The position numbers and the translations under genes are program-made. This document shows positions 12,125 to 32,405 of a DNA stretch of 64,000 nucleotides, in pieces; the stretch's first letter is position 1; each line of letters begins with the position of its first letter. Source of the stretch: Bryobacteraceae bacterium (GTDB lineage Bacteria; Acidobacteriota; Terriglobia; Bryobacterales; Bryobacteraceae); assembly GCA_019752335.1 (NCBI GenBank), contig JAIEMJ010000014.1:124001-188000 (forward strand), written 5' to 3'. The notes under the pieces are model-generated. The model searched no databases and was not told the DNA's origin. It saw nothing but the letters and a program-made list of their open reading frames with translations.

Positions 12125-15100
12125 CGGATCACCGCCAAAATCTGCCCCGGTTGCACCATTGCGCCCGGCGCGCAGCGCAATTCGAGGAGCTTGCCCGAGG
12201 CGGGCGCCATCACGGCGACCTCCATCTTCATGGCTTCGAGGATCACGACTTTGTCTCCTGTTTGCACGGGCTGGCCGGGCGATAAAGCGATGTTCCAAAC
12301 GCTGGCCGCAATCGGCGAGCGGACCGCGATGCCGCCGTCGGGCAAAGCGTCATCCGCCGGCGGCGGCACGTCGTCGAGCGCGGGCGCAAGGTACTCGCCC
12401 CAGCGGTCGCGCTCTTCGCGGAAGGCCTGCTCGCGCATCGACTGAAACTCCGCAGACTCCTTGGCAATCGAGGCCAGGAACTGGCGATGCGCGGGCAGAT
12501 GGAACGTGCCTGGTTCAATTCGAGGGGCGAAACCCGGGTCAGCGCGCAGTTCGAGTAACTCCTGCGCCGACACGGGGTAGAACTGAATGCGATCAAAGAA
12601 TTCGAGCAGCCAGGGTTGCGGCTGGCGATAGGTGTTCCACATCTGCGTCGTCCGGCCGACAAACTGGTAGCCGCCCGGACCCTCCATGCCATATACACAC
12701 ATGTATGCGCCGCCAATGCCGACGGCGTTTTCCGGCGTCCACGTCCGCGCCGGGTTGTACTTCGTCGTCACCAGACGATGGCGCGGATCCACCGGCGTCG
12801 CAACCGGCGCGCCAAGGTAGACGTCGCCCAAGGCGAGCGTGAGCCAACTCGCTTCGAACACCGTGCGATAGACGTCGTCCACTGAAACGAGGCCGTTAAT
12901 CCGCCGGATGAATTCGATATTCCAAGGGCACCACGGCGCGTCCGCGCGCACGCCCTGCATGTAGCGCTGGATGGCGTCGCGCGTCGAAGGATCGTCCCAG
13001 GAGAGCGGCAGATGCACGATGCGCGAGGGCATCGTGTCCACCGAATGCGATTGCGCTTCCTCGATCATCTCGAAGAGCTGGCCGCGCGAGAGCTTGGCCG
13101 TGTCGTAGTGAATTTGCAGGGAACGAATGCCGGGCGTGAGGTCGATCAGGCTCCCATCCTGCAACCGGTGCTTCAGTTGCTGGCGCAGCGAATGCGCCTT
13201 CAGCGACAGCTCAAAGTCGAGCCGGTTCTCGCCGAACTCGACGAGCAGATACTCATCGCCATCGGCGCGAATCACGACGCCGGGCGCCTTCCGCAGCACG
13301 GCGGGCTCGTTGTCGACGCGAGCAAACCGCACCGTGTCGCCGGCCTTCAGTTGCCCCATCTTCCAGCGCTCGGCGGCGACGATAGTGGCCGGGCAGACGA
13401 AGCCGCCGCAACTGGGTCCGTCGGGCCCGAGGATGATCGGCATGTCGCCGGTGAAGTCGACCGTGCCCACGGCGTAGGCGTTGTCGTGGATGTTCGAAGG
13501 ATGCAGACCGGCCTCGCCGCCGTCTTTCCTGGCCCAGGTGGGCTTGGGGCCAATGAGGCGAACGCCCGTACGGTCAGAATTGTAGTGGACGCGGTAGTCG
13601 GTCGCGAAGAAGACGTCGATGTCGTCGTCGGTAAAGAAGTCCGGCGCGCCGTGCGGGCCATAGGTGACGCCGATTTCCCAATGCCGGTCGTAAAGTGGGA
13701 CAGGCCTCCCGGCCTGTCCCGGCGGTTTTTCAGGGTCAGGGCCGAAGCGCAGCAAATCGCCGGTGCGCAGAAATCGACCGCCGAATTTGCCCAGGATGAA
13801 GGTGGACCTAGAGCCGAGGTAAGGGGGGACGTCGATGCCGCCGCGGACCGCGAGGTAGGCGCGCGCACCGGGTCCGTTGACGGCGGTGAGCCGCAAAAAA
13901 TCCCCGGCTTTCACCGCCAACGGCACCCAACGTTCGACGCCCATGTCGGCGCCCGTCAGCGCGACGACGGCATCCTGATGGAAGCGCAGCGTGGGGCCGA
14001 TTAACGTCAGTTCGAGCGCCGCCGCGTCGGGCGCGTTGCCCACGATCTCGTTAGCGAGGCGAAAAGCGAGGTCGTCCATCGGGCCAGAGGGCGGCACGCC
14101 GACGTGCCAATAGCCGAGCCGGCCCGGGAAGTCCTGCACGGTAGATTGGGTGCCGGGCTCGATCACTTCGATGGCGCGCGGCGTATACGCCAGGCTCTTC
14201 AGAAACGACGTGGGAAAAGCGCCCGCCGCGAAGCCATCGCTTTCCACCACCATCCGCAGGTAGTCCAGATTCGTCTCGATGCCCGCAAGTTGCGCGGCGG
14301 CGAGCGCTTGGCTCAGCTTGCCGACGGCCTCAGCGCGCGTCGCGCCGTGGACGATGATCTTCGCCACCAGCGGGTCATAGAAAGGCGGCACTTCGGTGCC
14401 GGCTTCGGCCCAGGTTTCGACGCGAGCGTCGGCGGGCCAAGCGACGTGGGTAAGCAGCCCAGGGCTCGGCGCGAAGTCCTTCAGCGGACTCTCGGCGTAC
14501 ACGCGCACCTGCAGCGACGCTCCGCACGGCTCCACCGGGACGATGGGATTCTCGCCGCCCGCCAGGCGCACCATCCACTCCACCAGGTCGACGCCGGTAA
14601 CCTCCTCGGTCACCCCGTGCTCCACCTGCAAGCGCGTGTTCACCTCCAGGAAGTAGAACTCCTCGCGGTCCGCGTCGTAGATGAATTCCACCGTGCCGGC
14701 ATTGCGGTAAGCGACCGCCTGGCCCAGCCGCACCGCCGCGTCGCACAAAGCCTGCCGGGCGGCCGGCGTGATGCCGGGTGCGGGCGTCTCTTCAATCACC
14801 TTCTGATTGCGCCGCTGCGCCGAGCAATCACGCTCGCCCAGCGCGACCACTTGCCCCGCGCCGTCGCCGAAGATCTGCACTTCAATGTGGCGTGCACGCT
14901 CCACGAAACGCTCGGCGAAGATACCGGAGTCCTTAAAGCTGGCCTCGCTTAGCCGCTGCACCGCGGAGAAGGCTTCGTCGAGTTCGGCTTCGCTGCGGCA
15001 GAGCCGCATGCCGATGCCGCCGCCGCCTGCCGTCGACTTCAGCATCAGCGGCAAGCCCACCACCAAGGCCTCGCTCGCCGCTTTCAATAACCCGGTGCCC

Positions 15101-15486
15101 GGTAGCAGCGGCACTTGATTGCGCTCGGCGAGTTCGCGGGCGCGATGCTTCAGTCCGAAGTCGCGCATCTGGCTTGGCGTGGGTCCGATGAAGGCGATCC
15201 CGGCCGCCTCGCAGGCTTCGGCGAAGGCCGCATTCTCGCTCAGAAAACCGTAGCCAGGATGAATCGCCTGCGCGCCGGTTTGTTTCGCCGCCGCCAGCAC
15301 GGCATCGACGTCCAGATAGCCGCGCACGCCGCCCAACGATACGGCCTGATCGGCTTGGCGGACGTGCAGCGAATGCCGGTCAACGTCCGAGTAAACGGCC
15401 ACGCTGGCGATACCCATGCGCCGCAGAGTACGGATGATGCGGCAGGCGATGGCGCCGCGGTTGGCGATGAGAACTTTGCTGAACAT
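12121..15486 (-). CDS. Biotin-dependent guanidine/urea carboxylase
   Basis: Large multidomain enzyme of 1121 residues that carboxylates a urea-like substrate using ATP and bicarbonate. Order: biotin carboxylase domain (1 to about 445, starting '[20 protein letters not shown]'), carboxyltransferase halves of the KipA/AHS2 type (from '[16 protein letters not shown]', about 468-760) and KipI/AHS1 type (about 770-985), and a C-terminal biotinyl domain with EAMKME (biotinylated Lys near 1087). Enzymes encoded with two DUF1989 partners, as here, are now known to prefer guanidine over urea; the sequence alone cannot prove the substrate. A palindromic repeat is read through at residues about 589-597. 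The start ATG directly follows the TAA of the upstream gene. Confidence 0.9.
13697..13720. repeat. Palindromic repeat inside the carboxylase gene
   Basis: Perfect 10-bp inverted repeat (GGGACAGGCC, 13697-13706, with its complement at 13711-13720) around a 4-base loop. It is translated in frame as 'GQAGRPVP', in a stretch between domains (residues about 589-597). The composition and palindromic form suggest a mobile REP-like element that landed in a permissive loop. Confidence 0.7.
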
Positions 15487-16083
15487 TTAGCCCCAAACCA
15501 TCAGCTTCACGGGCGTGGGATTGTAGGCATTGCAAGGGTTATTGAGTTGTGGGCAGTTCGAAATCAGCACCAGCGTATCCATCTCGGCGCGCAACTCGAC
15601 GTACTTGCCGGGCTCCGAGATGCCGTCTTCAAAGGTCAATTTGCCGTCCGGCGTCACGGGCACGTTCATGAAGAAGTTGACGTTGTGCGAGAGGTCGCGC
15701 TTCTCCAGGCCGTGGGCCAAACCGTACTTCAGAAACGTTTGCCGGCAGGCGTGCATGTAACGCTTGCCGATGTCGTAACGGACCATGTTGCTCTCCTGCG
15801 AGCAAGCGCCGCCGAGCGTATCGTGGCGGCCGCAGGTATCGTCGACAATCGTCACCAAAACGTTCCCCGATTGCGACAGCAATCGGCTGCCGGTGGTGAG
15901 GTAGATGTTGCCTTGCGTGGCGATCGTATTCACGGCGGAGTAGTGGTCCGCGTGGTCGTGCGCGTTGTAGAAGAGCGTATCGACGGCCTGGTTCCCTTCG
16001 AGATCCACGATGCGCAGATGCTGCCCCTGCTTAAGGACCTGCGCCCAACCGTCGCCCGCGAGGACGATGAATTCTTCGCTCAT
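15487..16083 (-). CDS. DUF1989 protein, likely carboxyguanidine deiminase subunit (Cys-containing)
   Basis: 198 residues of the urea-carboxylase-associated (DUF1989) family. In characterised bacteria, two such proteins form carboxyguanidine deiminase, which converts carboxyguanidine to allophanate. This subunit carries the '[11 protein letters not shown]' motif near its C terminus, with two Cys that its partner lacks. It also has '[17 protein letters not shown]' early and '[13 protein letters not shown]' in the middle. The start at 16083 is set by an ATGA overlap with the upstream paralog's stop; the 218-codon frame would begin inside that gene. The stop TAA is immediately followed by the carboxylase ATG. 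Confidence 0.88.
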
Positions 16084-16793
16084 GCCGAATACCTTTCCGT
16101 CAGTGTGAAGCCGCGGCCATTCTCCGGCCGCGACACCCGGCAAGCGTCGTTGGCGCCTGGCGTAGGCACCCGTTTCACGGTCAGCTTCACCGGCTTCGGT
16201 GCGTACACCGTGCCCGGCTCCAAGGGATGATGATTCGCGCTCAAGAGCACCAACACCTTCATCTCGGCCCGCAACTCCACCACGCTGCCCGCTTTGGAGT
16301 TGCCCGGGATGTAGGCCATCTGCCCCAGTTCATTCACCTGCACTTTGCTGAAGAGGTTCAGGGTGGGCGTCAGGTCGCGCGCGGAGAGCGAGTATTTGGC
16401 GAGTTCGAGGATCAGGCTCTCTCGCGCGGCCTGCGTCCAATCGTTGCGATGCTGCTGATAGGGCTTTTCGCCGTACTTGGCCGCGACGTGCGCGGCCGAT
16501 AGCGTGCCGCCAATCGGGTCATGCCAGCCGACCGTATCTTCCGTCATCGAGCACAGGATGCGCCCCATGTCGGAGTAAAGGACGAAGCCTTTGGTGAGGC
16601 GCGCGATGTGCTGGGCTTTCAGCGTATCGGGCATGTTGTAGCGCTCGGTGGGTTCGAGCGCGTTGTAGAAGAGGCTACTGACGTTGGCCCCGCCCTCCAA
16701 GTCCGTCAGGCGCAGGCTCATGCCGCGTTCGAGCACCTGGGACCAGGTCTGGCCGCCACGCAAATCCTCTTCCCACAGAATGCTTTCTTGCAT
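16080..16793 (-). CDS. DUF1989 protein, likely carboxyguanidine deiminase second subunit
   Basis: 237 residues, paralog of the following gene: '[20 protein letters not shown]', '[16 protein letters not shown]' and '[12 protein letters not shown]' align with it. The position of the NCPQ/NNPC cysteines reads '[10 protein letters not shown]' here, so it probably contributes structure rather than the same metal or catalytic ligands. The start was placed at the ATG of '[10 protein letters not shown]', 8 bases after the propeller gene stop; a longer frame would overlap that gene by 67 bases. Cytoplasmic partner in guanidine degradation, inferred from family and operon. Confidence 0.87.
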
Positions 16794-16801
16794 AGGTCTT
16801 C

Positions 16802-17770
16802 TTATTGTCCAGTAAATTGCGCGGGGTTCAGCCGCCAGACGTTCTGCTGCCGCAGATTCGAGAGCCACACGGAGCCGTGCGCAAACAGAATCGCATCGCC
16901 GCCGGGGCCGGCAAACTGATGGGTGACTTTATCGGTCTTCGCGTCAATGCGGCTCAAAGGAATCTGAAAGACGGTCACCCAGACGGCGCCGCCGCCGGCG
17001 GAAATCTCGCCGCCGCCGCCGGGGATGCCCACCTGGATGGTGGCCACGGTCTTGCGGGTCTTCGGATCGATTTTGGAGACGGTGCCATCGCCCTGGTTGA
17101 GGGTCCAGACGAAGCCTTCGCCCACCGTAAGAAAGCGCGGCTGGGGTCCCACTTCGATGGTGTCCGTCACCTGATTCGTCTTCGGGTCGATCCGCGTCAC
17201 CACCTTGCCCTTGCTGTTCGTCACCCAGACGGCGCCTTCGCCAAAGTCCGCCGTGTGCGAGCCTTCCGGCACGCTCACCTCGGCTACCACTTGGTTCGTT
17301 TTCGGGTTGATGCGCGCGACCTTATTGCCGGTCGTCGGCATCCACACGGCGTCCTTGCTGCAGGCGATCCCGCCCTCGGAATTGGCGGGCCCCACGGGAA
17401 TCGTCGCTAAGACCTTGGCTGTCTTGGCGTCGACGCGGGAGACGGTCTTATCGCCGCAGTTGGGCACCCAGAGGCTGCCGAAGCCGTAGGCGATGCCGCT
17501 GCAGGGCTTCACGCCCACGGTCACCGTTTCGGTGACTTTGTTGGTTTTGGCGTCGAGCTTCGAGATGGAGTTCTTCGGGCCGTTCGAAACCCAGACGGCG
17601 TCGCGGGTGGCAATGGTCCAATCCGGCACCCCAGGGACGCTGAACTCGAAGTCGTGCTTCAAGGCGTCCATGGGCTTCTGCACTTCCTTCACCCCCGGCA
17701 GCGGCGGACGTGGCGGTCGCTTCTTCTGCGGCGCCTCCTGCGCGGCAAGGCAGGAGAAGAGCAGCAGCAT
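16802..17770 (-). CDS. Secreted Vgb/YVTN-like beta-propeller, copy 1
   Basis: 322 residues. A short hydrophobic leader (LLLFSCLAA) precedes a Pro/Lys-rich linker and about seven repeats of the form 'WVxN...TVSRIDPKTxKVxATIxVG', typical of virginiamycin-lyase-like (Vgb) propellers. A Cys pair in 'KPCSG...VPNCG' is shared with the paralog at 23389-24381. No catalytic residues can be assigned, so ligand binding or scaffolding in the periplasm is as likely as enzymatic activity. The start is the ATG at 17770; a TTG two codons upstream with a distant GGAG is possible. The open frame continues upstream through repeat DNA but is not coding there. It lies 8 bases before the DUF1989 genes and so heads the catabolic operon. 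Confidence 0.82.
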   Translation of the reverse strand: MLLLFSCLAAQEAPQKKRPPRPPLPGVKEVQKPMDALKHDFEFSVPGVPDWTIATRDAVWVSNGPKNSISKLDAKTNKVTETVTVGVKPCSGIAYGFGSLWVPNCGDKTVSRVDAKTAKVLATIPVGPANSEGGIACSKDAVWMPTTGNKVARINPKTNQVVAEVSVPEGSHTADFGEGAVWVTNSKGKVVTRIDPKTNQVTDTIEVGPQPRFLTVGEGFVWTLNQGDGTVSKIDPKTRKTVATIQVGIPGGGGEISAGGGAVWVTVFQIPLSRIDAKTDKVTHQFAGPGGDAILFAHGSVWLSNLRQQNVWRLNPAQFTGQ

Positions 17771-17812
17771 CGCCAATGTGAATCTGACTCCGCTTACAAA
17801 ACTTGCGGGCTC

Positions 17813-17843
17813 CGAACGAACCCCGACCGTAAGGGAGGGGATG
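17813..17843. repeat. Dispersed 'CCCGACCGTAAGGGAGGGG' repeat, copy 1
   Basis: Same core as the two arms of the inverted repeat at 17921-18014, in the same orientation as its right arm. All three copies sit between the propeller and symporter genes. Confidence 0.8.
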
Positions 17844-17920
17844 GCCGAGCCATCCACAGGACGCACACCGTCGCCCCGCCAAAGCCCCGAAGCCGCCGTC
17901 TGGACGGTTAACCTCTCCGC

Positions 17921-18014
17921 GGGCCCAGCATCCCCTCCCTTACGGTCGGGGTTCGTTCGGGAAGCAGGCGCGCCTACCACGAACCCCGACCGTAAGGGAG
18001 GGGATGCTGGGCCC
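17921..18014. repeat. 35-bp perfect inverted repeat
   Basis: Left arm 17921-17955 and right arm 17980-18014 are exact reverse complements over 35 bases, separated by 24 bases. The arms contain the same core as the copy at 17813-17843. Such a structure can fold into a long hairpin in either transcript and may stop or stabilise RNA between the symporter and propeller genes, but it has no T-run. It looks like a REP/BIME-type dispersed element. Confidence 0.9.
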
Positions 18015-18033
18015 GCAGGCAGGCATCGAATTA

Positions 18034-19443
18034 CTACATCGTGTCGCATGAAAGCTCCTTTTGCGGCGACGCCGCCAAGCTCACCGCGAAGAACGCGATG
18101 GCGCTTAACACCGGGGGCAACAACGTGTCGAGGCCCGCCAACGACGCCGGCACGGCGAAGTAGCAGATCGCCCGCGCGACGGTGCCCGTCACAATGCTGG
18201 CGATGGCGCCCCCTTGCGTCGCCCGGCTCCAATAGACTCCCAAGAATAGCGGAATCACGCAGCCGGCGAAAACAATATCGAAGGCCACCACCAACAGCAG
18301 CCCCGGCTCCGGCCGGACATAAGCAATGATCCCCGCCGCGATCGCCGTGGGCAAAGCCAACGCGCGCGACAGGAACAGCATCTTGCCGTCCGTGATCGTC
18401 TCCGTGCTCCAACGTTGCCACACGTTGCGCGCCATCACCACCGCGATCACCAGCATCGCGCCATTCGCCGTCGACATCGACGCGCCCAGGATCCCGATAA
18501 ACACCAGCACCGCGATCCAGTAGGGCAGGGAAGCATTGGCGAAAGCCGGCAGCACCATCCGCGGATCGTCCACCTTGCCGACGCTGGCGATGGCCGCCAA
18601 GCCCAACAGCGAGGCGCACAGGCCGATCACCAACGTCCAGACGCCCGCGTAATAGCAGCCCCGCCGCGCTGTCTCCGGGCTCTTCGCCGAGAAGACCCGC
18701 TCCATAAAATCCAGCGCCATGGCGTTGCCAAACGCCAGCGAGATAATGTTCGCCCAATTGGCGAGCCCGCCGCCGGCCAGCGTCGTGAGTTGGCCCAGGC
18801 TGAGCGTCTGCGCGGGCAGCGCCGCGGCGATCGAGTCCCAGCCGCGCGTCGTCAGGACGAAGATCGCCGCCGCCAGAAATCCCACGATGGCCACGTGGAT
18901 CTGGAAGAAGTCCGTCCAGATGGCCGCATGCAGGCCGCCCGCGATTGTATACAGAAAGATCAATGACGTGCCCAACAGCAGGCAATTGACGTAGCTGAAG
19001 CCGGTTACCACGCTCAAAATCCACCCCACCGCCGACAAGTTGCCCGCCACCAGCACGATGAAACAGACGATGGTGAGCAGGCTCGCCAAGGCTTCGGCCG
19101 AGCGTCCGTAGCGCCGGTAGAAGTACTCGGGCAACGTCATCAGGTTCATCGCGTTCAGCGGCGCGGCCAGGAAGCGGCCGACGATGAAGAGGCTCGCCGC
19201 GAGACCCAGAGGAATCGCCGCGCCGGCCCAGAACCCTGTGGAATAAGTGAGCGAAGCATTGCCCAGCGTGGCGTTGCCGTCAATCGCCTGCGCGGCCAGC
19301 GCCGTCCCAATCACAATAAACGGCATCGACTTCCCGGCCACCGTGTACTGCTCACTGGAGCCGCGGATCTTCGTGTATGTGTAGAGGCCAATGCACAGCG
19401 AAATCGCCATGAAGATGGCGACCGGCCAGATCATGTCCGTCAA
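18034..19443 (-). CDS. Sodium:solute symporter (SSS family)
   Basis: 469-residue inner-membrane transporter with about 12-13 hydrophobic segments. The N-terminal region 'YTKIRGSSEQYTVAGKSMP' and the following 'GTALAAQAIDGNATLGNASL' fit the sodium:solute symporter family. Substrate unknown. Because it lies upstream of a guanidine/urea-type catabolic operon on the same strand, a nitrogenous solute such as urea or guanidine is an inference. A 263-base spacer with repeats separates the two, so co-transcription is unproven. The start is a TTG at 19443 with GAGGAG 9 bases upstream; an ATG three codons later is the alternative. Confidence 0.88.
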   Translation of the reverse strand: MTDMIWPVAIFMAISLCIGLYTYTKIRGSSEQYTVAGKSMPFIVIGTALAAQAIDGNATLGNASLTYSTGFWAGAAIPLGLAASLFIVGRFLAAPLNAMNLMTLPEYFYRRYGRSAEALASLLTIVCFIVLVAGNLSAVGWILSVVTGFSYVNCLLLGTSLIFLYTIAGGLHAAIWTDFFQIHVAIVGFLAAAIFVLTTRGWDSIAAALPAQTLSLGQLTTLAGGGLANWANIISLAFGNAMALDFMERVFSAKSPETARRGCYYAGVWTLVIGLCASLLGLAAIASVGKVDDPRMVLPAFANASLPYWIAVLVFIGILGASMSTANGAMLVIAVVMARNVWQRWSTETITDGKMLFLSRALALPTAIAAGIIAYVRPEPGLLLVVAFDIVFAGCVIPLFLGVYWSRATQGGAIASIVTGTVARAICYFAVPASLAGLDTLLPPVLSAIAFFAVSLAASPQKELSCDTM

Positions 19444-19567
19444 AGCCAGCTACTCCTCGCGAAGGGGGTGGCCCGCGGAACGTGGCGGGGTGAAAAGGCG
19501 AGTGTAGCGTCTTTGGCCGGGGGAAGCCCAATCGAAAAGTCGGATGCTACCCATCATTAACTTTTGA

Positions 19568-19596
19568 TTGACATTCCGGGCGAATCGCCCTAAGCT
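19568..19596 (+). promoter_or_regulatory. Sigma70-type promoter for TonB receptor 2
   Basis: A perfect -35 (TTGACA, 19568-19573) is separated by exactly 17 bases from TAAGCT (19591-19596). This predicts a leader of about 100 bases before the GTG start at 19703. No known riboswitch was recognised in that leader. Confidence 0.6.
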
Positions 19597-19702
19597 CGGC
19601 TAATCGAGGTGGATCTCTGTCCGGTTCGCCCCGTCTTTTCCCCGCTGAACTATCCCACGACGGATATTTGCTCTAGCCAAATCAAACTTGGAGATTCCAG
19701 TC

Positions 19703-22700
19703 GTGAAACATGCTTCGCTTGTCCACCGGGCGCTGTTAGCCCTTTTACTCAGCTTGCCCGCCTTCGGCCAATCGAGTTCTTTGAAAGGCGAGGTGACGGA
19801 CGGCCAGGGAGCGGCCGTGCCCGAAGTGGTGGTCACGATTACGAATCTGGATACCGCCGCCACCCGGAAGACCGTTTCCACCGCCACGGGTTCCTACGTC
19901 TTTTTGCAAGTGCCTCCCGGCCCCTACAAGCTGGAAGCGCAGCGCCCTGGCTTCCGGACCTTAACTCAGCAAGTGCGCCTGCAGATCGACGTGCCTTCCA
20001 CGGTCAACCTCGCTCTCGAAGTGGGCCAGGTGAACGAGACGATCAACGTCAGCGAAGAAGCCATCGCCATCAATACCACCAACGCCACGGTCGGTAACGC
20101 CTTTACTGAGGTGCAGGTGCGGCAGTTGCCCCTCCAGACACGCAACGTCGTCGAGTTGCTCAGCTTACAGCCCGGCGTCACCGCGAATGGCGAAGTGCTC
20201 GGCGCCAAGCGCGACCAGAACAACGTCACGCTCGACGGCGTCGACGTCAACGATCAGCAAAGCGCCGGCATGACCGCCAGCACTTCAGCCGGCCTCAACG
20301 CCGCCCTGCCCGTTCCCCTCGATTCCGTCCAGGAATTCCGCGTCACCATCGCCGGCCAGGGTGCTGACCAAGGCCGCTCCGCCGGCGGCCAGGTTTCGCT
20401 GGTCACCAAGAGCGGCTCGAACAACTTCCACGGCTCGCTCTATGACTTCAATCGCAATAAGTCGCTCGCCGCGAATGACTGGTTCTCGAATCGCTCCGGC
20501 CTGAAGCGCGAAGCCCTCATCCGCAATCAATACGGCGCTTCGCTCGGAGGACGCATCATCCGCGACCGTGCCTTTTTCTTTGTCAACTGGGAGGACCGCA
20601 AGGACCGTTCGGCTAGCGCCCAATCGCGCAACGTACCCACCGAAACCCTGAAAGCGGGCATCGTGCAGTACCGCACCTCGGCCGGTGTCCAGTCGCTTTC
20701 TCCCGCTGAAGTCACTACGCTCGATCCGCGCGGCCTGGGCTACAACCCGGCGATGCGCGCCATCCTCAACCAGTATCCCGCCGCCAACGACCTCCAGGCC
20801 GGCTCTGACCGCGGCCTGAACTTCGGCGTCTTCCGCTTCAATGCGCCCTTCACCCGCAACGACCGCGCCTACGTCGCCAAGATGGACTTCAACCTCGACA
20901 AGGCCGCCAAGCACACCCTGATGCTGCGCGGCACCCTGGGCCAGAACGCCCGCGATCAGGTGCTGGCGCAGTTCCCCGGCCAGGACGCCGCCGCGAAGAA
21001 TCTTGATAACTCGAAGGGCCTGGCCGCGCGTTACACCGCCGTGCTGAGTTCAAACGTCGTTAACGTCTTTAGCTATGGCTTCACCCGTCTGGGCATTGCC
21101 CAATCCGGCACGCCTGGCACGCGCCTCACCTTCGATAGCTTGTCGGACCTCCAGAACTACACCCGCGGCTTCGGCCGCATCATTCCGACGACGAACCTGG
21201 TGAACGACACCACGTGGACGAAGGGCGCCCACACCATCCAGGCCGGCATCAACTTCCGCCTCATCCAGAATGACCGCAATTCGTTCGCGAACTCCTACCC
21301 CACCTATGGCTTCAGCCGCAACACCCTCCGCGGACTGGGGGCCGACATCACCGATGCGCTCCTGGCCTACACCCGCACCCGCTCCGGTAATCCGGCGCTC
21401 ACACTCACCGAAACCCAACCCGCGCAGCGCGCGCTCGGCAACCTTTTTGGCCTGATGAACAACTACAGCGCCACCTACAACTTCGGCGCCGATGGCGTCG
21501 CGGTTCCTTTCGGCCAGCCCATCTTGCGCAGCTTCGGCACCCGGGAATATGAGTTCTACGTGCAGGACAGTTGGAAGGCGCGCCGCGATCTCACCCTCAC
21601 CGCCGGTTTGCGCTATGGCCTCTATCAGGTGCCTTACGAACGCAACGGCGTCCAAGTGGTACCCACCACGGGTCTCGATGTCTACTTCGCTCAACGGATC
21701 GGTGCTTCGCTGGCCGGCGTCTCCGGCGCCGCGCAGCGGGACGCTTCGCTCACGTTTGCCCTGGCCGGCCCCGCCAACAATGGCCCCGGCTGGTACAAGC
21801 GCGACACCAATAACTTCGCCCCGCGTTTCTCGCTCGCCTATGCCCCGGTCAGCGATACCTTCTGGGGTAAGCTGTTCGGCAAAGGCAGCGTGATTCGCGC
21901 CGGCGCCTCCATGCTTTATGACCGCTACGGCAGCGACATGGTGCTGAACTTCGACTCGTCCGGCTCCCCCGGTCTCGCGAGCCCCGTTACTCAGCCGCGC
22001 AATACTGACTTTACGGACTCTGTGCGTTTCGGCGCCACTCTGCCCGCGCTACCCGTGGCTCCGGCCGCGAAGTTCCCCTTCACCCCCAGCACCATCGTCG
22101 GCGGCTTCGGTTCCTACTCGGGCGTCTTCCCCGATCTGGTGGCCCCGTATTCTTACCTGCTCAACCTCACTTATGCGCGACCGCTACCCGGCAAGCTGGT
22201 GTTAGAAACCGGCTATGTGGGACGCCTGGCTCGGAAGAGCCTCGTGAAGCTGGACGTCTTCCAGCCGCTGACCCAGTTCCGGGACTCGAAGAGCGGACAG
22301 ACTTGGGCGCAAGCGGCCGGCGTTCTGCGCGACCGCTTTGAAGGCGGCGTTACCCCAGCCCAAGTGCGGGCCAACCCCAGCCTGATGGCTCCGGTGCCGT
22401 TTATCGAAAACATGTTCCCCGGCGCCGCTGGCAGAACCTTCCCCGGTAGCGCCACCGCCAACTACTTCTTCACCACCTACGGCACCTACGGCGGCAGCGA
22501 CCTCGACGCCTTGAACGACATGGACCGCGAACGCAATGCCGCCGGCCAGTGCATCTCGGTGCTGGGTTGCAACACCTTCTTCGCGAATCAGAACGCCGGC
22601 AACCTGGCCTGGACCAACGCTGGCCGCTCCTCTTTCCACGGCGGCCAACTCACGCTCCGCCGGGCCGTCAGCCAGGGTTGGGGCTTTGACTTCAACTATA

Positions 22701-23389
22701 CGCTGTCGCACTCGATCGACCTGGCTTCGACGGCCGAATCGGCCGCCGGCGTGGGGGGCGGTGTGATTCAGGATAGCTTCAATCCGCGCAGCTTCCGCGG
22801 CTCCTCCGACTTCGACATTCGCCACAACATCACCGCCAACGGTGTCGTCGAATTGCCCTTCGGCAAAGGGAAGCCGATCCTCGGGAACGCGCGCGGCTGG
22901 GCCGACCACATCGTCGGCGGCTGGCAGGTTTCGACGCTCTGGCGCTTCCGCACCGGCCAACCGCTCAACATCACCAACGGTGGCATTTACCCCACCAATT
23001 ACCTCAACTCGGCGCTGGGCCAACTGCGCCCCGGCGCCTCGCTGCCCGAGAATACGGCTGGCTATAACGCCAACGGCAATCCCGCCCTCTTCCGCACCAC
23101 CAACGCGGCGGCCGGCGCCTTCATGGGCCAATACCCCGGCACCAGCGGTACCCGCGCCCTCATCCGGGGCGCCGGGATGTCCAACTTCGATCTCTCGCTC
23201 GGCAAGTTCTTTATCATGCCCTGGTCAGAGAGCCATCGCGTGCAGCTTCGTGGGGAGGCCTTCAACGCCTTCAATAACGTGAACTTCACCGACGCCAACA
23301 CCAGCTTGGCCAACCCCAGCACCTTTGGGCAGTTCACCGCTGTGATGCCCGCACGTGTCATCCAACTTGCGCTACGCTACGAATTCTAA
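19703..23389 (+). CDS. Oar-like TonB-dependent receptor 2
   Basis: 1228-residue outer-membrane receptor: signal peptide (about 1-23), carboxypeptidase-regulatory-like domain (about 27-110), plug with the variant motif 'LPLQTRNVVELLSLQPGV' in place of the usual LPLNGRN, then a long barrel ending 'LALRYEF'. The start is the GTG at 19703, because GGAG lies 8 bases upstream; the TTG at 19688 precedes that site. Its stop overlaps the next gene's ATG by one base, so receptor and propeller are translationally coupled. It is divergent from the symporter. Confidence 0.92.
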   Translation: MKHASLVHRALLALLLSLPAFGQSSSLKGEVTDGQGAAVPEVVVTITNLDTAATRKTVSTATGSYVFLQVPPGPYKLEAQRPGFRTLTQQVRLQIDVPSTVNLALEVGQVNETINVSEEAIAINTTNATVGNAFTEVQVRQLPLQTRNVVELLSLQPGVTANGEVLGAKRDQNNVTLDGVDVNDQQSAGMTASTSAGLNAALPVPLDSVQEFRVTIAGQGADQGRSAGGQVSLVTKSGSNNFHGSLYDFNRNKSLAANDWFSNRSGLKREALIRNQYGASLGGRIIRDRAFFFVNWEDRKDRSASAQSRNVPTETLKAGIVQYRTSAGVQSLSPAEVTTLDPRGLGYNPAMRAILNQYPAANDLQAGSDRGLNFGVFRFNAPFTRNDRAYVAKMDFNLDKAAKHTLMLRGTLGQNARDQVLAQFPGQDAAAKNLDNSKGLAARYTAVLSSNVVNVFSYGFTRLGIAQSGTPGTRLTFDSLSDLQNYTRGFGRIIPTTNLVNDTTWTKGAHTIQAGINFRLIQNDRNSFANSYPTYGFSRNTLRGLGADITDALLAYTRTRSGNPALTLTETQPAQRALGNLFGLMNNYSATYNFGADGVAVPFGQPILRSFGTREYEFYVQDSWKARRDLTLTAGLRYGLYQVPYERNGVQVVPTTGLDVYFAQRIGASLAGVSGAAQRDASLTFALAGPANNGPGWYKRDTNNFAPRFSLAYAPVSDTFWGKLFGKGSVIRAGASMLYDRYGSDMVLNFDSSGSPGLASPVTQPRNTDFTDSVRFGATLPALPVAPAAKFPFTPSTIVGGFGSYSGVFPDLVAPYSYLLNLTYARPLPGKLVLETGYVGRLARKSLVKLDVFQPLTQFRDSKSGQTWAQAAGVLRDRFEGGVTPAQVRANPSLMAPVPFIENMFPGAAGRTFPGSATANYFFTTYGTYGGSDLDALNDMDRERNAAGQCISVLGCNTFFANQNAGNLAWTNAGRSSFHGGQLTLRRAVSQGWGFDFNYTLSHSIDLASTAESAAGVGGGVIQDSFNPRSFRGSSDFDIRHNITANGVVELPFGKGKPILGNARGWADHIVGGWQVSTLWRFRTGQPLNITNGGIYPTNYLNSALGQLRPGASLPENTAGYNANGNPALFRTTNAAAGAFMGQYPGTSGTRALIRGAGMSNFDLSLGKFFIMPWSESHRVQLRGEAFNAFNNVNFTDANTSLANPSTFGQFTAVMPARVIQLALRYEF

Positions 23390-24381
23390 TGCGCATTCTG
23401 CTCGTACTCGCAATTCTGACGGCCTCGGCGAAGGACAAAGAGGTTCTCCCGCCGAAATCCGGCGTGAAGACGCCCGGCGTGCAGATTCCTTTTGCGAGCC
23501 TGAAGTCCGAGGCCGAGGTCCCGCTAGGAGGGCCCGTCGGCCTCGGCCTGTTTACTGACTCCGCCATCTTCCCGCAGGACGGCAAGCTCGTCCGCGTCGA
23601 TCCCAAGACGAACAAGCTCTCCGAGCCGTTTTCCGGCCTCGACAAAACTTGCGGTGGCCTAGTGAGCGCCTTCGGGAGCCTCTGGGCGCCGAACTGCGGC
23701 AACCAGACCGTTGTCCGGCTCGATCCGAAAACCGGCAAGACCGCCGCCACCGTAAGCGTCACCACGGCCAACGTCGCGAGTGCTATCGCTGCCACCGCCG
23801 ACAGCATCTGGCTGCTCACCGACGAACGCACCACGCTCTCGCGCGTCGATCCCGATACCAACGCCGTCGTCGCCGAAGTCCGTCTGGAGCCTGGTTGCTC
23901 CGCGTTGCACTTTGCCGAAACCGCCCTCTGGCTGGCTTGCCCTTCGCTCAACAAAGTGATTCGCGTGGATCCGCGCACCAACCTGGCCGTCAACCGTATC
24001 GACGTCGCCGGTAAACCGGCCGCCCTCACGGCGGGCGAAGGGTCAATTTGGGTGCTGTGCCAAGCCGAAGGCAAGGTAGTGCGGATTGATCCCAAGAGCA
24101 ACAAAATCGTGACCACTGTCGAACTGTCCATTCCCAACGCCGACGGCAACATCGCCTTTGGCGAAGGCTCCGTCTGGGTCTCGGCCCCCGGCTTTCCCAT
24201 CACCCGCATCCATCCGGGAACCGCCGACAAGCCGGGCAGCGAGCGCGTCATGCAGCAGTTCTACGGCGAAGCCGCGGGGATTCTCCAAGTCGGGCTCAAG
24301 TCAGTCTGGCTGATGGACCGGAAGGCAGGAAAATTGACCCGTTTCGATCCCAAGCGGATCGCAGCCACCCTTGCGGATTGA
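23389..24381 (+). CDS. Secreted Vgb/YVTN-like beta-propeller, copy 2
   Basis: 330 residues with a short signal peptide (about 1-14) and blade repeats such as 'FGSLWAPNCGNQTVVRLDPK' and 'LTAGEGSIWVLCQAEGKVV'. It aligns blade by blade with the protein at 16802-17770, including the 'CGG...FGSLWxPNCG' Cys pair, so the two are paralogs. It overlaps the stop of TonB receptor 2 (TAATG), which suggests it acts with that receptor, perhaps as a periplasmic or surface substrate-binding partner. No enzyme activity can be assigned. Confidence 0.82.
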   Translation: MRILLVLAILTASAKDKEVLPPKSGVKTPGVQIPFASLKSEAEVPLGGPVGLGLFTDSAIFPQDGKLVRVDPKTNKLSEPFSGLDKTCGGLVSAFGSLWAPNCGNQTVVRLDPKTGKTAATVSVTTANVASAIAATADSIWLLTDERTTLSRVDPDTNAVVAEVRLEPGCSALHFAETALWLACPSLNKVIRVDPRTNLAVNRIDVAGKPAALTAGEGSIWVLCQAEGKVVRIDPKSNKIVTTVELSIPNADGNIAFGEGSVWVSAPGFPITRIHPGTADKPGSERVMQQFYGEAAGILQVGLKSVWLMDRKAGKLTRFDPKRIAATLAD

Positions 24382-24528: not shown

Positions 24529-27500
24529 ATGCGTTGCGGCTTTCTGTTTCTTACTCTGTTGAGCGCCACCCTCCGGGCGCAGAACTCGGCCTCGCCCGAA
24601 TTCTTCGAAACGAAGATCCGGCCGGTTTTCGCCAATAATTGCTACAGTTGTCACACTTCCACGGCCATGGGTGGCTTGCGTCTCGACTCGCCCGACGGCC
24701 TCGGCAAGGGCAGCGGCAAACACGGCCCGCTGATCACTCCTGGCGATCCGGAAAAGAGCGCGCTGATTCTGGCTGTCCGGCATACCGAAACGAACTTCAA
24801 GATGCCCATGGGCGCGAAGTTGAAGGATTCGGAAATTGCGGATTTAACGGCCTGGGTAAAGGCCGGCGCCGTTTGGCCCAAGACGGCGCCAGTGGCTGCG
24901 GCCGGCAAGTCAGAAGACGGTAAGTACGTCATTCGTCCCGCCATGCGCAACTTCTGGTCCTTCCAGCCGCTGAAGGAACTCCAGGCCCCCGCCCCCAAGG
25001 ATCCGAAATGGGCCAAGTCCACCATCGATAAGTTTGTTCTGGCGCGCCTCGAAAAAGAGGGGTTGAAACCCGTTAAGGCCGCTTCGAAGCGGGACCTGAT
25101 TCGCCGCGCCTCGTTGGACCTTACCGGCATCCCGCCTACTTACGAGGAAATCGCCGCTTTCGAAAAAGACGCGACGCCCGATGCTTTTGCCAAAGTGGTG
25201 GACCGCCTGCTCGCGTCGCCCCACTACGGCGAGCGCTGGGGCCGCTTCTGGCTCGACGTCGCCCGCTACGGCGAAGACGACTACCGCAGCCTGGATCCCA
25301 TGCGCCGTGGTTATAATCCCTACCCTAACGCCCATGTGTACCGGGATTGGGTGATCAAAGCTTTTCAGGACGATCTACCCTACGACCAATTCGTGAAAGC
25401 CCAGATCGCCGGTGACTTGCTCGACCCCAAGATCCGGCATAAGACTCTGCCGGCCACCGGTTTTCTTGGGCTCGGTCCCTGGTACTACGACAACGGCTCC
25501 ACCGAAGTTACGCGCGCCGACGAACGGCATGACCGCGTCGATGTCGTCACCCGCGGCTTCCTCGGCCTCACCGTCGCGTGCGCCCGCTGCCACGACCATA
25601 AGTACGATCCCATTCCCGCCTCTGACTATTACGCCATCGCCGGCGTCTTTAAGAACACCATCTACGAAGAGTATCCGTTGGTGCCAAAGTCAGTCCGCGC
25701 GGACTTCCAGAAAATCGAAGACCAGATCGACCAGAAGCAAAAACTGATTGGCGAAATCCAGAATAACCAGACCAGCCAATTGTCCCAAGCCCTCGCCTTC
25801 CAAACCGCGAACTATCTGCAGGGCGCTTGGGAAGTAACTGGGACGCAGAAGAAAGAGATGGCCGCCGTGGTGGAGGCCCGGAAGCTCGACTACGAATTGT
25901 TGGATCGCTGGATCAAGTATTTGGAGAAGCCCACCACCAAATACAAAAACAAAGAGGCGTGGCAGGCCATGATCAAGAAAGGCGGCACCCCCGCCGAGGC
26001 CAAGCGCCTAGCCGAAAAGTTTCAGGATGAAGTGCTCACCGTCATGCTCAACCGGAATGAGCTGACGGACGAAAACAAAATCATCGCAGCCAAGGCCCTC
26101 GACGGTACCAAGCCGAAAAAGCGCACCAATAAGCCGAGTAACTTCGTCACCAATGAAGACTTCTGCCCCGGTTGTAACTTGACCCTGAAGTCGCTGGCCG
26201 AGGCCGACGCCAATTTCGCCACGGAAATCTTCCAGCGCATGCTCTCTGACGCCGATGACCCCAACGCCATGATGGAGGGCCCCAATCGCTTCGGCAAACC
26301 CGGTGTGTTAATGTTCCGCGGCTGGGGACTCGAATCGCGCATTGGCTCTGAGGCCCAGGCGCAGATCGCCGCCATCCGTAAGGATATCGAAGAGTCGCGC
26401 AAGAAGCTCGAGCCGGGCTTCCCGTATCTGCACGGTGTGAAGGATGCGGAACTCCCCACCAATCTCGAACTCAGTTTCCGCGGCGATCCCTTTAATTTGG
26501 GTCCGCAGGTTCCGCGTCATTTTCTGTCGGTTCTGTCCAAGGACACCGCGACGCCCTTTTCCCGGGGCAGCGGACGCCTCGAATTAGCCGAAGCGATCCT
26601 CCAGCAGCCCATCGCTATGCGCGTCATCGTCAATCGTATCTGGAAAGGCCACTTTGGCACCGGCTTGGTCGACTCGCCGAGTAACTTCGGCATGACTGGT
26701 GAACGCCCGACGAATCCCGAGTTACTCGAATATCTCGCTTCTACGTTTGCCAAGAATGGACAATCCATCAAAAAGCTGCACCGGGAAATCATGCTGACTT
26801 CGGTTTATCAGCTTTCTACCGAGAACGATCCCGTCGCCCTCGCGAAGGACTCCGGGAATCGCCTCTACTGGCGCGCCGACCGCAAGCGCATGGACGCCGA
26901 GCAAGTGCGTGACTCGATTCTCCAAGTTGCCGGCGACCTCGACCCCGCCATTGGCGGCCCGTCCGCCGAACTTACCCCGGTCTTCAAACGCCGCACCGTT
27001 TACGGCAAAGTCAGCCGCTATAAGTTGGACGAGTATCTGCAATTATTCGATTTCCCCAGCCCCAATCTCAGCGCGGAAAAGCGTTTTGTAACGACGGTGC
27101 CCCAGCAGCGGCTCTTCCTGATGAACAGCGACTTCATGCAACTCGAAGCGGAAGAACTGGCCAAACGTGTCGCTTCTGAGCCGAACAACCGCGCGCGCAT
27201 TCGCAAGGCCCATCAGTTGGTTCATGGCCGTGATCCGTCTGAAGCAGAAGTTGCCTTGGGTCTCGAGTACCTCAAGGCTGAGCCGATGCTCGAGTATGAG
27301 GAAGGCAAGAAGAAGCCTCCCGCCGGGACTGAGCCCGGTAGACGGCGCGGACCCGGCGCCGGTGGTCCGCCGCCCGCCGACATTTCGGCCGTTAGCGGCA
27401 AGCCGGAAAAGCCGGCGGCGGAATCCGCCGAGCCGGCGGCCCCCGAAGCCGCGCCTGGCGCGGAACCGGAGGCCGGTGCCCTTCCTGACTTCGGCATGGG

Positions 27501-27624
27501 CATGATGGGTGGCATGGGCGGGCGCCGTCCGGCCGCTGCTCCACCCGTCAAGTATGAGCCCACCGCGTGGGGCCGTTACGCCAAGGTCTTGCTGAGTTCG
27601 AGCGAGTTTCTGTTTATTAACTAA
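24529..27624 (+). CDS. PSD1 family cytochrome c protein (DUF1549/DUF1553)
   Basis: 1031-residue exported protein of the type common in Planctomycetes and Acidobacteriota. Signal peptide (about 1-18), a PSCyt1 haem domain with the C-x2-C-H motif at Cys38/Cys41/His42, a DUF1549 domain (about 150-370, 'GERWGRFWLDVARYGED'), and a DUF1553 domain toward the C terminus ('ANRIW'-like 'VNRIWKGHFGTGLVDSPSNF'). Function is unknown; it may be a periplasmic oxidoreductase working with the adjacent DUF1501 protein. A Pro/Ala/Gly/Met-rich low-complexity insert (about 925-1005) interrupts the C-terminal region. The start was chosen at the ATG after AGAAGGA, which exposes the signal peptide. Confidence 0.9.
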   Translation: MRCGFLFLTLLSATLRAQNSASPEFFETKIRPVFANNCYSCHTSTAMGGLRLDSPDGLGKGSGKHGPLITPGDPEKSALILAVRHTETNFKMPMGAKLKDSEIADLTAWVKAGAVWPKTAPVAAAGKSEDGKYVIRPAMRNFWSFQPLKELQAPAPKDPKWAKSTIDKFVLARLEKEGLKPVKAASKRDLIRRASLDLTGIPPTYEEIAAFEKDATPDAFAKVVDRLLASPHYGERWGRFWLDVARYGEDDYRSLDPMRRGYNPYPNAHVYRDWVIKAFQDDLPYDQFVKAQIAGDLLDPKIRHKTLPATGFLGLGPWYYDNGSTEVTRADERHDRVDVVTRGFLGLTVACARCHDHKYDPIPASDYYAIAGVFKNTIYEEYPLVPKSVRADFQKIEDQIDQKQKLIGEIQNNQTSQLSQALAFQTANYLQGAWEVTGTQKKEMAAVVEARKLDYELLDRWIKYLEKPTTKYKNKEAWQAMIKKGGTPAEAKRLAEKFQDEVLTVMLNRNELTDENKIIAAKALDGTKPKKRTNKPSNFVTNEDFCPGCNLTLKSLAEADANFATEIFQRMLSDADDPNAMMEGPNRFGKPGVLMFRGWGLESRIGSEAQAQIAAIRKDIEESRKKLEPGFPYLHGVKDAELPTNLELSFRGDPFNLGPQVPRHFLSVLSKDTATPFSRGSGRLELAEAILQQPIAMRVIVNRIWKGHFGTGLVDSPSNFGMTGERPTNPELLEYLASTFAKNGQSIKKLHREIMLTSVYQLSTENDPVALAKDSGNRLYWRADRKRMDAEQVRDSILQVAGDLDPAIGGPSAELTPVFKRRTVYGKVSRYKLDEYLQLFDFPSPNLSAEKRFVTTVPQQRLFLMNSDFMQLEAEELAKRVASEPNNRARIRKAHQLVHGRDPSEAEVALGLEYLKAEPMLEYEEGKKKPPAGTEPGRRRGPGAGGPPPADISAVSGKPEKPAAESAEPAAPEAAPGAEPEAGALPDFGMGMMGGMGGRRPAAAPPVKYEPTAWGRYAKVLLSSSEFLFIN

Positions 27625-27636
27625 AGGGTGAATCAC

Positions 27637-29202
27637 ATGTCTTTCCACAAGAAACCAAACCCCACCACCCGCCGCGAAGCTTTGCGCCGCGTAGGCAATG
27701 GCTTTGGCATGGCTGCCTTTGCGAGCCTCTTGAATAACTCCCTCGCCCGCGCCGGCGGCCTGGCCGCCCCCGACGGCAGCGTCGGCGTCGCCAAGCTGGA
27801 CCACCCCCAGAAAGTAAAACGCGTCATCTTTCTCTTCATGAACGGCGGACTCTCTTCGGTCGATAGCTTCGATCCCAAGCCGATGCTCGACAAGTACGAT
27901 GGCCAGCCCTTGCCCGGCGCTCAGGTGAAAACCGAGCGCGGCACGGGTGCGCTCATGAAGTCGCCCTTCGCTTTCAAGAAATACGGCAAGAGCGGCATTG
28001 AGGTGAGTGAACTCTGGCCGAATGTCGGCGAACTCGCCGACGATATCTGCTTCATCCGCTCGGTCTACACCGAAATCCCCAATCACGAGCCCTCCTGCCT
28101 GATGATGAACACCGGCGCCAACCAGGCTGGCCGCCCGTCGCTGGGCGCCTGGCTTACCTATGGCCTCGGCACGGAAAATCAGAATCTGCCGGGCTTCGTG
28201 GTTCTCTGTCCAGACGTGCCCACCACCGTCGGCCCGCCGCTGTGGAGCAATGGCTTCCTGCCCGCTATCAATCAGGGAACTTACATTTCCAGCAAGGTCC
28301 AAACGCCGGAAGGCGCTCCTCCGCCGATGGAGACTCCGGCGGAAAAGCCGAAAGACGAGAAGGCCATGGCTTCCAAGGACGAAAAGCCCAAGGATGACAA
28401 AGACAAGAAAGTCGTCATCGAAAAGAATTTCGATCCCAAGAAGTTAGTCAGTTACGTCAATAACCCGAAGTTCGAAATCACCGAACAGCGACGCGAACTC
28501 GACTTACTCAAGAAAATCGAAAAGCTCAGGCAACAACGCGACGGCGACGACCCGCAGGTAGAGGCCGTGATGAAGTCGATGGAAGTCGCCTTCCGCATGC
28601 AGACCGAAGCCCCCACCGTCTTTGACATTCGCAAGGAGTCCGAGGCGACGCAGAAGATGTACGGCCCCGGCAGCACCGCCCGCGCTTGCCTTACCGGTGT
28701 GAGACTCCTCGAAAAAGGCGTGCGCATGGTCCAGGTCTATTACGCCAAGGGCGATCCCTGGGATGCCCACGGCGACATCATGGGCCACAAGATCAACGCC
28801 AAGAACTCCGATCAGCCCTTTGCCGCCGTGATCAAGGACCTGAAGTCTCGCGGACTCTGGAACGACACGCTCATCGTTTGCGGTTCCGAGTTTGGCCGCA
28901 CTCCGGTTCGCGAGGTGGGTGGCGGCGGTGGCGGTGGCGGCGTGAAGCGCGGCCGCGACCACAATCCCTTCGGTTTCACCATGTGGCTGGCCGGCGGAGC
29001 CATCAAGGGCGGCACGACTTACGGCGCCACCGACGACTTCGGCTTCAAGGCCATCGAAAAGCCGGTCCACGTCCACGACATCCATGCCACCATCCTGCAC
29101 CTGATGGGCATTGACCACACCAAGCTCACGTACCGCTACTCCGGCCGCGACTTCCGCCTCACCGACGTCAGCGGTAACGTCCTGCACGATATTTTGGCTT
29201 AG
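27637..29202 (+). CDS. DUF1501 protein with Tat signal
   Basis: 521 residues. A twin-arginine export signal ('TTRREALRR', residues about 10-18, then a hydrophobic stretch) directs the folded protein to the periplasm. DUF1501 proteins are alkaline-phosphatase/sulfatase-fold relatives that usually pair with PSD1 proteins, as here with a 12-base gap. 'VIFLFMNGGLSSVDSFDPKP' is the N-terminal core, and 'CGSEFGRTP' and 'GRDHNPFGFTMWLAGG' form the C-terminal core. A Lys/Glu/Asp-rich insert (about 227-262) is unusual. The start is the ATG at 27637, spaced correctly from AAGGGTG; the GTG at 27628 is less likely. Confidence 0.9.
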   Translation: MSFHKKPNPTTRREALRRVGNGFGMAAFASLLNNSLARAGGLAAPDGSVGVAKLDHPQKVKRVIFLFMNGGLSSVDSFDPKPMLDKYDGQPLPGAQVKTERGTGALMKSPFAFKKYGKSGIEVSELWPNVGELADDICFIRSVYTEIPNHEPSCLMMNTGANQAGRPSLGAWLTYGLGTENQNLPGFVVLCPDVPTTVGPPLWSNGFLPAINQGTYISSKVQTPEGAPPPMETPAEKPKDEKAMASKDEKPKDDKDKKVVIEKNFDPKKLVSYVNNPKFEITEQRRELDLLKKIEKLRQQRDGDDPQVEAVMKSMEVAFRMQTEAPTVFDIRKESEATQKMYGPGSTARACLTGVRLLEKGVRMVQVYYAKGDPWDAHGDIMGHKINAKNSDQPFAAVIKDLKSRGLWNDTLIVCGSEFGRTPVREVGGGGGGGGVKRGRDHNPFGFTMWLAGGAIKGGTTYGATDDFGFKAIEKPVHVHDIHATILHLMGIDHTKLTYRYSGRDFRLTDVSGNVLHDILA

Positions 29203-29252
29203 TGGTTGCCGGGACGGCCACGGAGAGCCGCGTAAGGGGTACACTATGGGCC

Positions 29253-32200: not shown

Positions 32201-32405
32201 GACGAAGTCCTTTGTGTACCGGGAGCGGTATAAGTTGAACGTGTTTATGGAGGGCTTCAACGTGTTCAATGTGGCCAATTTGGGCGGAATTAGCAATAGC
32301 TTGAATAATCCCGCAGCGTTTGGCATTCCCACGAGCCGGGCGAGCCAGGTTTTTGGGTCTGGAGGTCCGCGGGCCTTTCAGTTGGGTAGCCGTTTTTCAT
32401 TTTAG
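29253..32405 (+). CDS. Oar-like TonB-dependent receptor 3
   Basis: 1050-residue outer-membrane receptor: signal peptide (about 1-18), regulatory-like domain (about 20-108), plug with 'LPLNGRSFLQLAFLEPGV', barrel ending 'GSRFSF'. It follows the PSD1/DUF1501 pair closely, and this trio recurs in acidobacteria. The start ATG is preceded at 7 bases by TACACT, so it could also have its own leaderless promoter. Its codon use is distinct: G- and T-ending codons (CGG, TTG, GCG, GGG) dominate, while the upstream genes strongly prefer C-ending codons, which suggests a different history. Confidence 0.9.
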   Translation: MWRLILPLLLTMSAGLAQAPIGTIAGTVTDDSGAVVAAVAVTVTNTESGLKRETLSNAEGQYSVPALPAGRYEVRAQNAGFRVTLRQATVVVGSTTTVDLALQVGAVTEVVNVDAATSQIAYDSHKIDGVIGRTQIESLPLNGRSFLQLAFLEPGVGVGTQSLAQYNAQFSVSVLGASSGKTALTVDGGNVRNALEGGSAQNFSQEVVEEFQISSANFDLSTGIAASGAINIVSRSGGNDFHGGGYFFYRDNHLSAYPALRRNPFAPDPFFARRQAGFLASGPIKKDKLFFFFNLENNNQDSVVTVQPDSPYFAGLAQNAVTPYDARQISAKFDYRINTNHNLFARYSHDGNHGFGPRSGAPLPSNWLVNRNWADQSIMGLTSTFRSTLVNDFRFAYQYWNNRNLHATEKECPGCLGIGLPEMSVVGTNVRFGNTLNAPQGRDIRRYNLVNNMTWQRGAHRMRFGGSFENSPFAGFWAFGDPAAGQVWGPDIMVANRIPLAAFGLPNQFSTNADVLKLPLLGFAMGIGDPSQPPPYNRDKAGNNRRYHFYWQDTYRVNKKLTLNYGLSWQYESTLVNGDLSKPALLAPIMESLEPTKPTYTNWSPSLGFAWNPFRNNKTVIRGGGGFYYDTTELSQRLGERAAIGPVGNGRQQIGGQSIPNPTAGIVNPIPGLLPNVNVGTPLDFRTLPTGFRLSDLLTILPRARATAEAAVANPNPNDLSVRNINLSKQGTDIYPYRYGPGYARHLTLGVQREVRKDLVVTADFVYRHGFREDLGALDYNRFFRLAGPVIPRCTGTQAADPRANCSTGSIGIRTSAGRSVYRALLVKVDKRFSKRFQFLASYSLAAAQGMNGVTNLDNWFENWGPMGGRHGLNVSGIVDLPYRVQLSFISSMGTRGPYRPQLGSVDLDGDGQDTAFLPGWNVPDRKPTKQRLESAVAAWNNNYPDLPNGQRPRTSRGQTIPRLVLPADYSFGDNFSSQDIRVTKSFVYRERYKLNVFMEGFNVFNVANLGGISNSLNNPAAFGIPTSRASQVFGSGGPRAFQLGSRFSF

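Follow-up and report, generated by a model that had tools for sequence, protein, structure and literature searches.

A seven-blade propeller pair co-inherited with a predicted guanidine carboxylase operon in Acidobacteriota

Closest described systems and how the locus compares

Propellers that help TonB-dependent receptors are known from Bacteroides, where BtuG works with BtuB in the uptake of vitamin B12 and XusB with XusA in the uptake of a siderophore (PMC10404256, PMC13142918), and propeller-assisted TonB uptake has been described as exclusive to Bacteroidetes (PMC10404256). As in these systems, a seven-blade propeller gene adjoins a TonB-dependent receptor gene in the window analysed here, a 64,000-nucleotide stretch from a Bryobacteraceae bacterium of the Acidobacteriota (assembly GCA_019752335.1, 7.2 Mb in 55 contigs; contig JAIEMJ010000014.1, positions 124,001 to 188,000), which encodes two related propellers, P1 and P2, on the arms of a divergent locus (Table 1). 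We put the probability that P1 and P2 serve outside the cytoplasm as subunits dedicated to a nitrogen-scavenging system ending in the guanidine carboxylase pathway at just under one half; this reading draws on the embedding of P1 in the nitrogen operon, on residues of the carboxylase, on co-inheritance and on a ring of residues found in P1 only.

BtuG-BtuB may be regarded as the nearest working analogue. BtuG and XusB are lipoprotein lids that act at the cell surface, whereas P1 and P2, known here from sequence and predicted structure, were judged by eye to be non-lipoproteins and their receptor is Oar-like; an electronegative ligand face is a feature of BtuG and is proposed for P1. The guanidine carboxylase (GC) pathway, comprising GC, CgdAB and allophanate hydrolase, shares with the window all four enzymes and the diagnostic Asp residues of the carboxylase. 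The usual TIGR03427 ABC importer of that pathway is carried by relatives of the locus, whereas the window has an SSS-family sodium:solute symporter instead and adds the propellers, a TonB receptor, a PSCyt/PSD1 protein and a DUF1501 protein, which go unmentioned for the known pathway in the portions of PMC12186494 and PMC11410670 that were available.

The PSCyt/PSD1-DUF1501 pairs of Planctomycetes and Verrucomicrobia have the same domains in the same gene order as the window; unlike those pairs, the subfamily found here is tied to the propeller pair and the guanidine pathway. A fourth likeness is to the quinoprotein relay with its TIGR03866 propeller (PQQ-dependent catabolism-associated), in that some relatives have a YVTN propeller together with an ABC importer, a cytochrome and a metallo-beta-lactamase hydrolase. 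Unlike that system the operon has no quinoprotein dehydrogenase, and membership of TIGR03866 was rejected on a score of 65.6 bits, far below the cut-off of 287.3. A search of titles and abstracts, confined to open-licence papers and so leaving absence unproven, gave nothing joining propellers or PSCyt proteins to guanidine. The guanidine pathway itself is known; these comparisons suggest that the outer arm (propellers, receptor, PSCyt/PSD1 and DUF1501) is undescribed.

The nitrogen operon

Open reading frames and domain scans place on the leftward arm of the window genes for the SSS symporter, P1, UAAP1, UAAP2, a biotin carboxylase and an allophanate hydrolase, and on the rightward arm genes for an Oar-like TonB receptor, P2, a PSCyt1-PSCyt2-PSD1 protein, a DUF1501 protein and a second TonB receptor. 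A preliminary description, made from the sequence alone, had reported a divergent symporter and TonB receptor, each followed by a propeller, leading together into a nitrogen catabolic operon; gene calls and domains agree with it on both points, and the operon carries a guanidine carboxylase signature. The P1 stop codon lies 8 bp upstream of the UAAP1 ATG, a spacing by which P1 physically belongs to the nitrogen operon. On the other arm, the P2 ATG overlaps the stop codon of the receptor gene (TAATG).

The operon is of the guanidine type as judged by its diagnostic Asp residues, and its activity is predicted accordingly from these positions. Asp1330 (Kluyveromyces lactis numbering) separates guanidine carboxylase from urea carboxylases, which have Asn, and Asp at both 1330 and 1584 is required for a guanidine carboxylase call (PMC11410670). 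D677 of the window's carboxylase aligns with N1330 of the K. lactis enzyme and D888 with D1584, and at the loci fetched from relatives Asp occupies position 1330 in 42/42 homologues and position 1584 in 43/43. Identity as a urea carboxylase was rejected on this signature. The adjacent UAAP1, UAAP2 and allophanate hydrolase genes match TIGR03425, TIGR03424 and TIGR02713, all above cut-off.

Co-inheritance and linkage in relatives

In an order-level sample of 200 genomes, in which the guanidine pathway was scored by the carboxylase or UAAP1, the propeller was detected in 73 genomes and the pathway in 58. Every one of the 58 pathway genomes carries the propeller and none lacks it, 15 genomes have the propeller and no pathway, and 127 have neither (Fisher p=1e-36, a value that ignores relatedness and overstates independence, since the genomes are related). 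Six genera (g2, g10, g11, g14, g15 and g16) hold both states, and within them the pathway never occurs without the propeller. The DUF1501 ortholog is present in 58 of the 200 genomes, 57 of them propeller-bearing; in the exception (G100) the PSCyt gene is reduced to a 75-bp remnant. Among 297 genomes sampled phylum-wide, UAAP1 was found in only three beyond the window's own, all of another family (f4), and in each of these P1 lies immediately beside the operon, together with PSCyt, DUF1501 and an ABC transporter; the binding protein, as read in one of these genomes, belongs to TIGR03427. P2 is absent from the three f4 genomes.

Linkage around the propellers is frequent in both arms. PSCyt lies within 3 kb of P2 in 39/46 loci and P2 directly follows the TonB gene in 15, while SSS lies within 3 kb of P1 in 25/63 loci and the carboxylase within 12 kb of P1 in 24/63, many of the others being truncated at contig ends. 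Next to the same genes, the importer is of the SSS type in some genomes and of the ABC type in others. Of the 16 relatives with P1 and UAAP1 adjacent on one strand, 14 have a gap of -4 to 88 bp between them; in several relatives a few bases separate SSS from P1 and P1 from UAAP1, which speaks for a single transcript. Co-occurrence in other genomes, on which the uptake route suggested by the preliminary description depended, is thus borne out for the propellers, the SSS or ABC importer, the receptor and the nitrogen operon, which are linked and co-inherited; that description had overlooked PSCyt/PSD1 and DUF1501, the closest partners of P2.

The mirrored arrangement of the two modules, also emphasized there, is present in the window but is not conserved. 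Neighbourhood tables reveal at least three layouts, namely the divergent one of the window, a tandem P2-P1 pair (20 loci, gaps of 26-220 bp) and one with the arms far apart. As the other layouts are at least as common, mirror symmetry was rejected as a functional feature: the conserved unit is the gene set and the symmetry is incidental.

The propeller pair

Homology between P1 and P2 extends along the whole of both proteins (36% identity, E=2e-66), and the two share, as had been noticed in the window, a Cys pair, which is invariant in relatives (C94/C109 in 47/47 P1 sequences, the equivalents in 40/40 P2 sequences). They are the only two members of their family in the genome, the next match having 29% identity over 203 residues, and both give confident seven-blade models (Table 1). 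In a tree of 98 sequences they form two clades with 100/100 support, each spread across the family, from which it follows that the duplication is old and that both copies have been retained.

The two copies differ in a ring of residues. D54, E136, R216, E/D259 and D296 are present in 47/47 P1 sequences and are not kept in the 40 P2 sequences, where mostly neutral, variable residues take their place; S95 and S175, each in 46/47 P1 sequences, complete seven ring positions. The seven are spaced 37-43 residues apart, at or next to the start of the innermost strand of each blade according to DSSP, the five charged residues falling in this position in five of the seven blades. Given this periodicity and location, the charged ring of P1 would lie around the mouth of the channel, a placement that combines sequence with secondary structure. 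With the ring in P1 alone, P1 has the look of a ligand binder, and P2 that of a copy with a structural or partner-binding role. Residue 170 of P2 is Cys in 40/40 sequences; the corresponding ring position of P1, in blade 4, is Ser.

Comparison of folds does not single out a function for the pair: structures of BtuG rank with the best hits of P1 in Foldseek, the top VIA-align rows are tied at Z 31-32 across WD40, YncE and Vgb folds, and seven-blade folds are generic enough to produce many unrelated ties. Both proteins are probably exported. No lipobox or conserved Cys at a cleavage site was seen by eye in the signal-like N-terminal stretches of 46 P1 and 39 P2 relatives. In the window itself (17768-17791), GTC replaces the ATG at which P1 of the nearest relative begins (MRYAF...), not far from the REP insertion described below; P1 must then begin at TTG 17776 or ATG 17770, and with these starts the positive end of its signal peptide is weaker.

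Proposed function and alternatives

According to the preferred reading, the TonB receptor, together with P2, PSCyt/PSD1 and DUF1501, would act at the outer membrane or beyond it, taking up or processing a nitrogen compound of the guanidino type. P1 would hold a cationic substrate in its charged channel mouth, released guanidine would enter through the SSS symporter (the ABC importer in relatives), and GC, CgdAB and AtzF would degrade it by way of carboxyguanidine and allophanate to ammonia. In this scheme we infer the identity of the ligand, the order of the steps and the physical contacts. A more specific version, in which a PSCyt/PSD1-DUF1501 complex acts outside the cytoplasm with the propellers and the TonB receptor and frees guanidine, by oxidation or hydrolysis, from a larger guanidino compound, is rather doubtful; if true, it would give planctomycete-type cytochrome/DUF1501 pairs a first function and guanidine assimilation a new outer-membrane arm. 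The periplasmic hand-over of substrate by the propellers, proposed in the preliminary description, is unproven, and BtuG and XusB, in contrast, act at the cell surface.

Several observations weigh against this reading. Guanidine is small enough for porins and should not need a TonB receptor, so that a larger precursor would be expected. A guanidine riboswitch is frequent, though not obligatory, upstream of GC pathway genes; none reached the Rfam gathering score in the window or in seven relatives, and riboswitch control was rejected. The P1-SSS-GC and P2-PSCyt-DUF1501 groups are separate in some genomes (G060, G104 and G155), and joint regulation of the two arms is unproven. Besides the relatedness of the genomes sampled, there are the 15 propeller genomes without the pathway, in which P1-like proteins mostly keep the charged ring and adjoin PSCyt/DUF1501; the ligand of P1 may therefore not be guanidine-specific, and the propeller may have a general role with the PSCyt complex.

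The last point leads to an alternative that we consider somewhat unlikely, in which P1 and P2 would be subunits of a redox complex of PSCyt/PSD1 and DUF1501 proteins, with the guanidine pathway as no more than the commonest user downstream of it. Propeller subunits occur in hydrazine synthase and quinohaemoprotein amine dehydrogenase. P1 adjoins PSCyt/DUF1501 in the pathway-free genomes G067, G111, G115, G149, G167 and G192, and the closeness of P2 to PSCyt noted above is in keeping with such a complex, as is the fusion or proximity of P1, in some genomes, to metallo-beta-lactamase proteins akin to quinoprotein-relay hydrolases. The propellers also have weak matches to the hydrazine synthase beta subunit (by profile, and 5c2v_B by Foldseek), but the profile score is 45 against a cut-off of 560, probably an effect of the YVTN repeats, and membership was rejected. 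Against the 74 first-look DUF1501 candidates in the genome there are just two propellers of this family, so most such pairs do without them, and a 2017 study found nothing known of the functions of PSCyt genes (PMC5615132).

Clearly less probable is a role like that of BtuG or XusB, with the propeller capping the TonB receptor and loading a cofactor, a metal chelate or some other large cation that has nothing to do with guanidine itself. The negative propeller face of BtuG binds positively charged B12 (PMC10404256), and the BtuG matches of P1 and the position of P2 after the TonB gene fit this explanation; the charged ring, however, is in P1 and not in the receptor-linked P2, the lipobox typical of such lipoproteins was not seen, the similarity of fold is generic, and the exclusive co-occurrence with the GC pathway would need another reason. 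Hitchhiking of common acidobacterial surface genes, which would have stayed close to the operon through common descent without working together, is very unlikely and already disfavoured: the source genome has 99 TonB-barrel matches (mostly to part of the family profile only) besides its many DUF1501 candidates, yet the set stays linked although order, strand and distance have repeatedly been reshuffled, the linkage recurs in another family, and six genera with both states never have the pathway without the propeller. Least probable of all is a lyase activity of the Vgb type by which the propellers would attack a cyclic substrate, a reading that was rejected because the Pfam Vgb_lyase matches (31.1 and 27.7 bits) fall below the 50-bit cut-off; fold matches to 2qc5 and 2z2o also point that way, but such matches are typical of any seven-blade YVTN propeller and P2 reaches 2qc5 by sequence profile with an E of only 7e-4.

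If P1 and P2 do belong to a guanidine-directed system, the co-inherited set may represent an outer arm, as yet undescribed, of guanidine (nitrogen) scavenging in soil Acidobacteriota, and propeller-assisted TonB uptake may have a counterpart in this phylum. PVC bacteria and Acidobacteriota have many PSCyt/PSD1 and DUF1501 pairs, and the tie of one subfamily to a nitrogen pathway offers a testable substrate class. Where guanidine comes from in nature is an open question (PMC12186494); an arm linked to a receptor hints at a larger precursor of the guanidino type in soil.

Features of the locus and its surroundings

Table 1. Features of the propeller locus, in window coordinates.
Feature	Position	Strand	Evidence or remark
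Allophanate hydrolase (AtzF/TIGR02713)	10544..12124	-	TIGR02713 745 bits, over cut-off; AH_C domain
Biotin-dependent carboxylase, predicted guanidine carboxylase	12121..15486	-	TIGR02712 1685 bits; D677, D888
UAAP2 / carboxyguanidine deiminase subunit (DUF1989)	15487..16083	-	TIGR03424 331 bits, over cut-off
UAAP1 / carboxyguanidine deiminase subunit (DUF1989)	16080..16793	-	TIGR03425 314 bits, over cut-off
P1, predicted exported seven-blade YVTN propeller with invariant charged ring	16802..17776	-	Homology; model pLDDT 90
REP-like palindromes between SSS and P1, outside the function	17812..18023		Repeat count in genome
SSS-family sodium:solute symporter, predicted inner-membrane importer	18034..19434	-	PF00474 115 bits
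Divergent promoter/operator region, SSS/TonB gap	19435..19702		Footprint kept in relatives, weak in window
Oar-like TonB-dependent outer-membrane receptor	19703..23389	+	OMP_b-brl_4 451 bits; CarboxypepD_reg
P2, paralogous predicted exported seven-blade propeller without charged ring	23389..24381	+	Homology; model pLDDT 87
PSCyt1-PSCyt2-PSD1 protein, one CxxCH haem motif	24529..27624	+	PF07583, PF07587, PF07635
DUF1501 protein, constant PSCyt/PSD1 partner	27628..29202	+	PF07394 449 bits
Second Oar-like receptor, 3' of DUF1501	29202..32405	+	Never best match at fetched relative loci, unlike first receptor

The start of the first Oar-like receptor was set by comparing relatives, and that of the allophanate hydrolase was taken as the first in-frame ATG, which overlaps the carboxylase stop codon. 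At two relative loci (L071:9956-12739 and L188) a single 928-aa frame joins a P1-like propeller to metallo-beta-lactamase domains akin to those of the quinoprotein-relay hydrolases, and in genus g9 a separate metallo-beta-lactamase gene (L114:8740-9546) lies between SSS and P1. Two small exported-looking proteins are also encoded near the propellers: one of ∼209 aa with an HEVFH motif (L092:7032-7661; 10 loci), which matches no Pfam or NCBIfam family, and a conserved one of ∼139 aa (L102:22-441 and six other loci), without a Pfam family.

In the intergenic region between the SSS and TonB genes of the window, no sigma-70 promoter scored above the scan threshold, and such a promoter was rejected there. 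The same gap in relatives (L077-L090) shares the footprint GAATAAGGANTATAG...TTTTCTATTTGAC, a possible operator common to them, of which the window has a weak version at 19540-19600. The insertion between SSS and P1 consists of three copies of a REP-like palindrome core, CCCCGACCGTAAGGGAGGGG, which with up to one mismatch occurs 75 times in the genome and 0 times in a reversed control, the copies often forming inverted pairs ∼97 bp apart in a REPIN-like manner.

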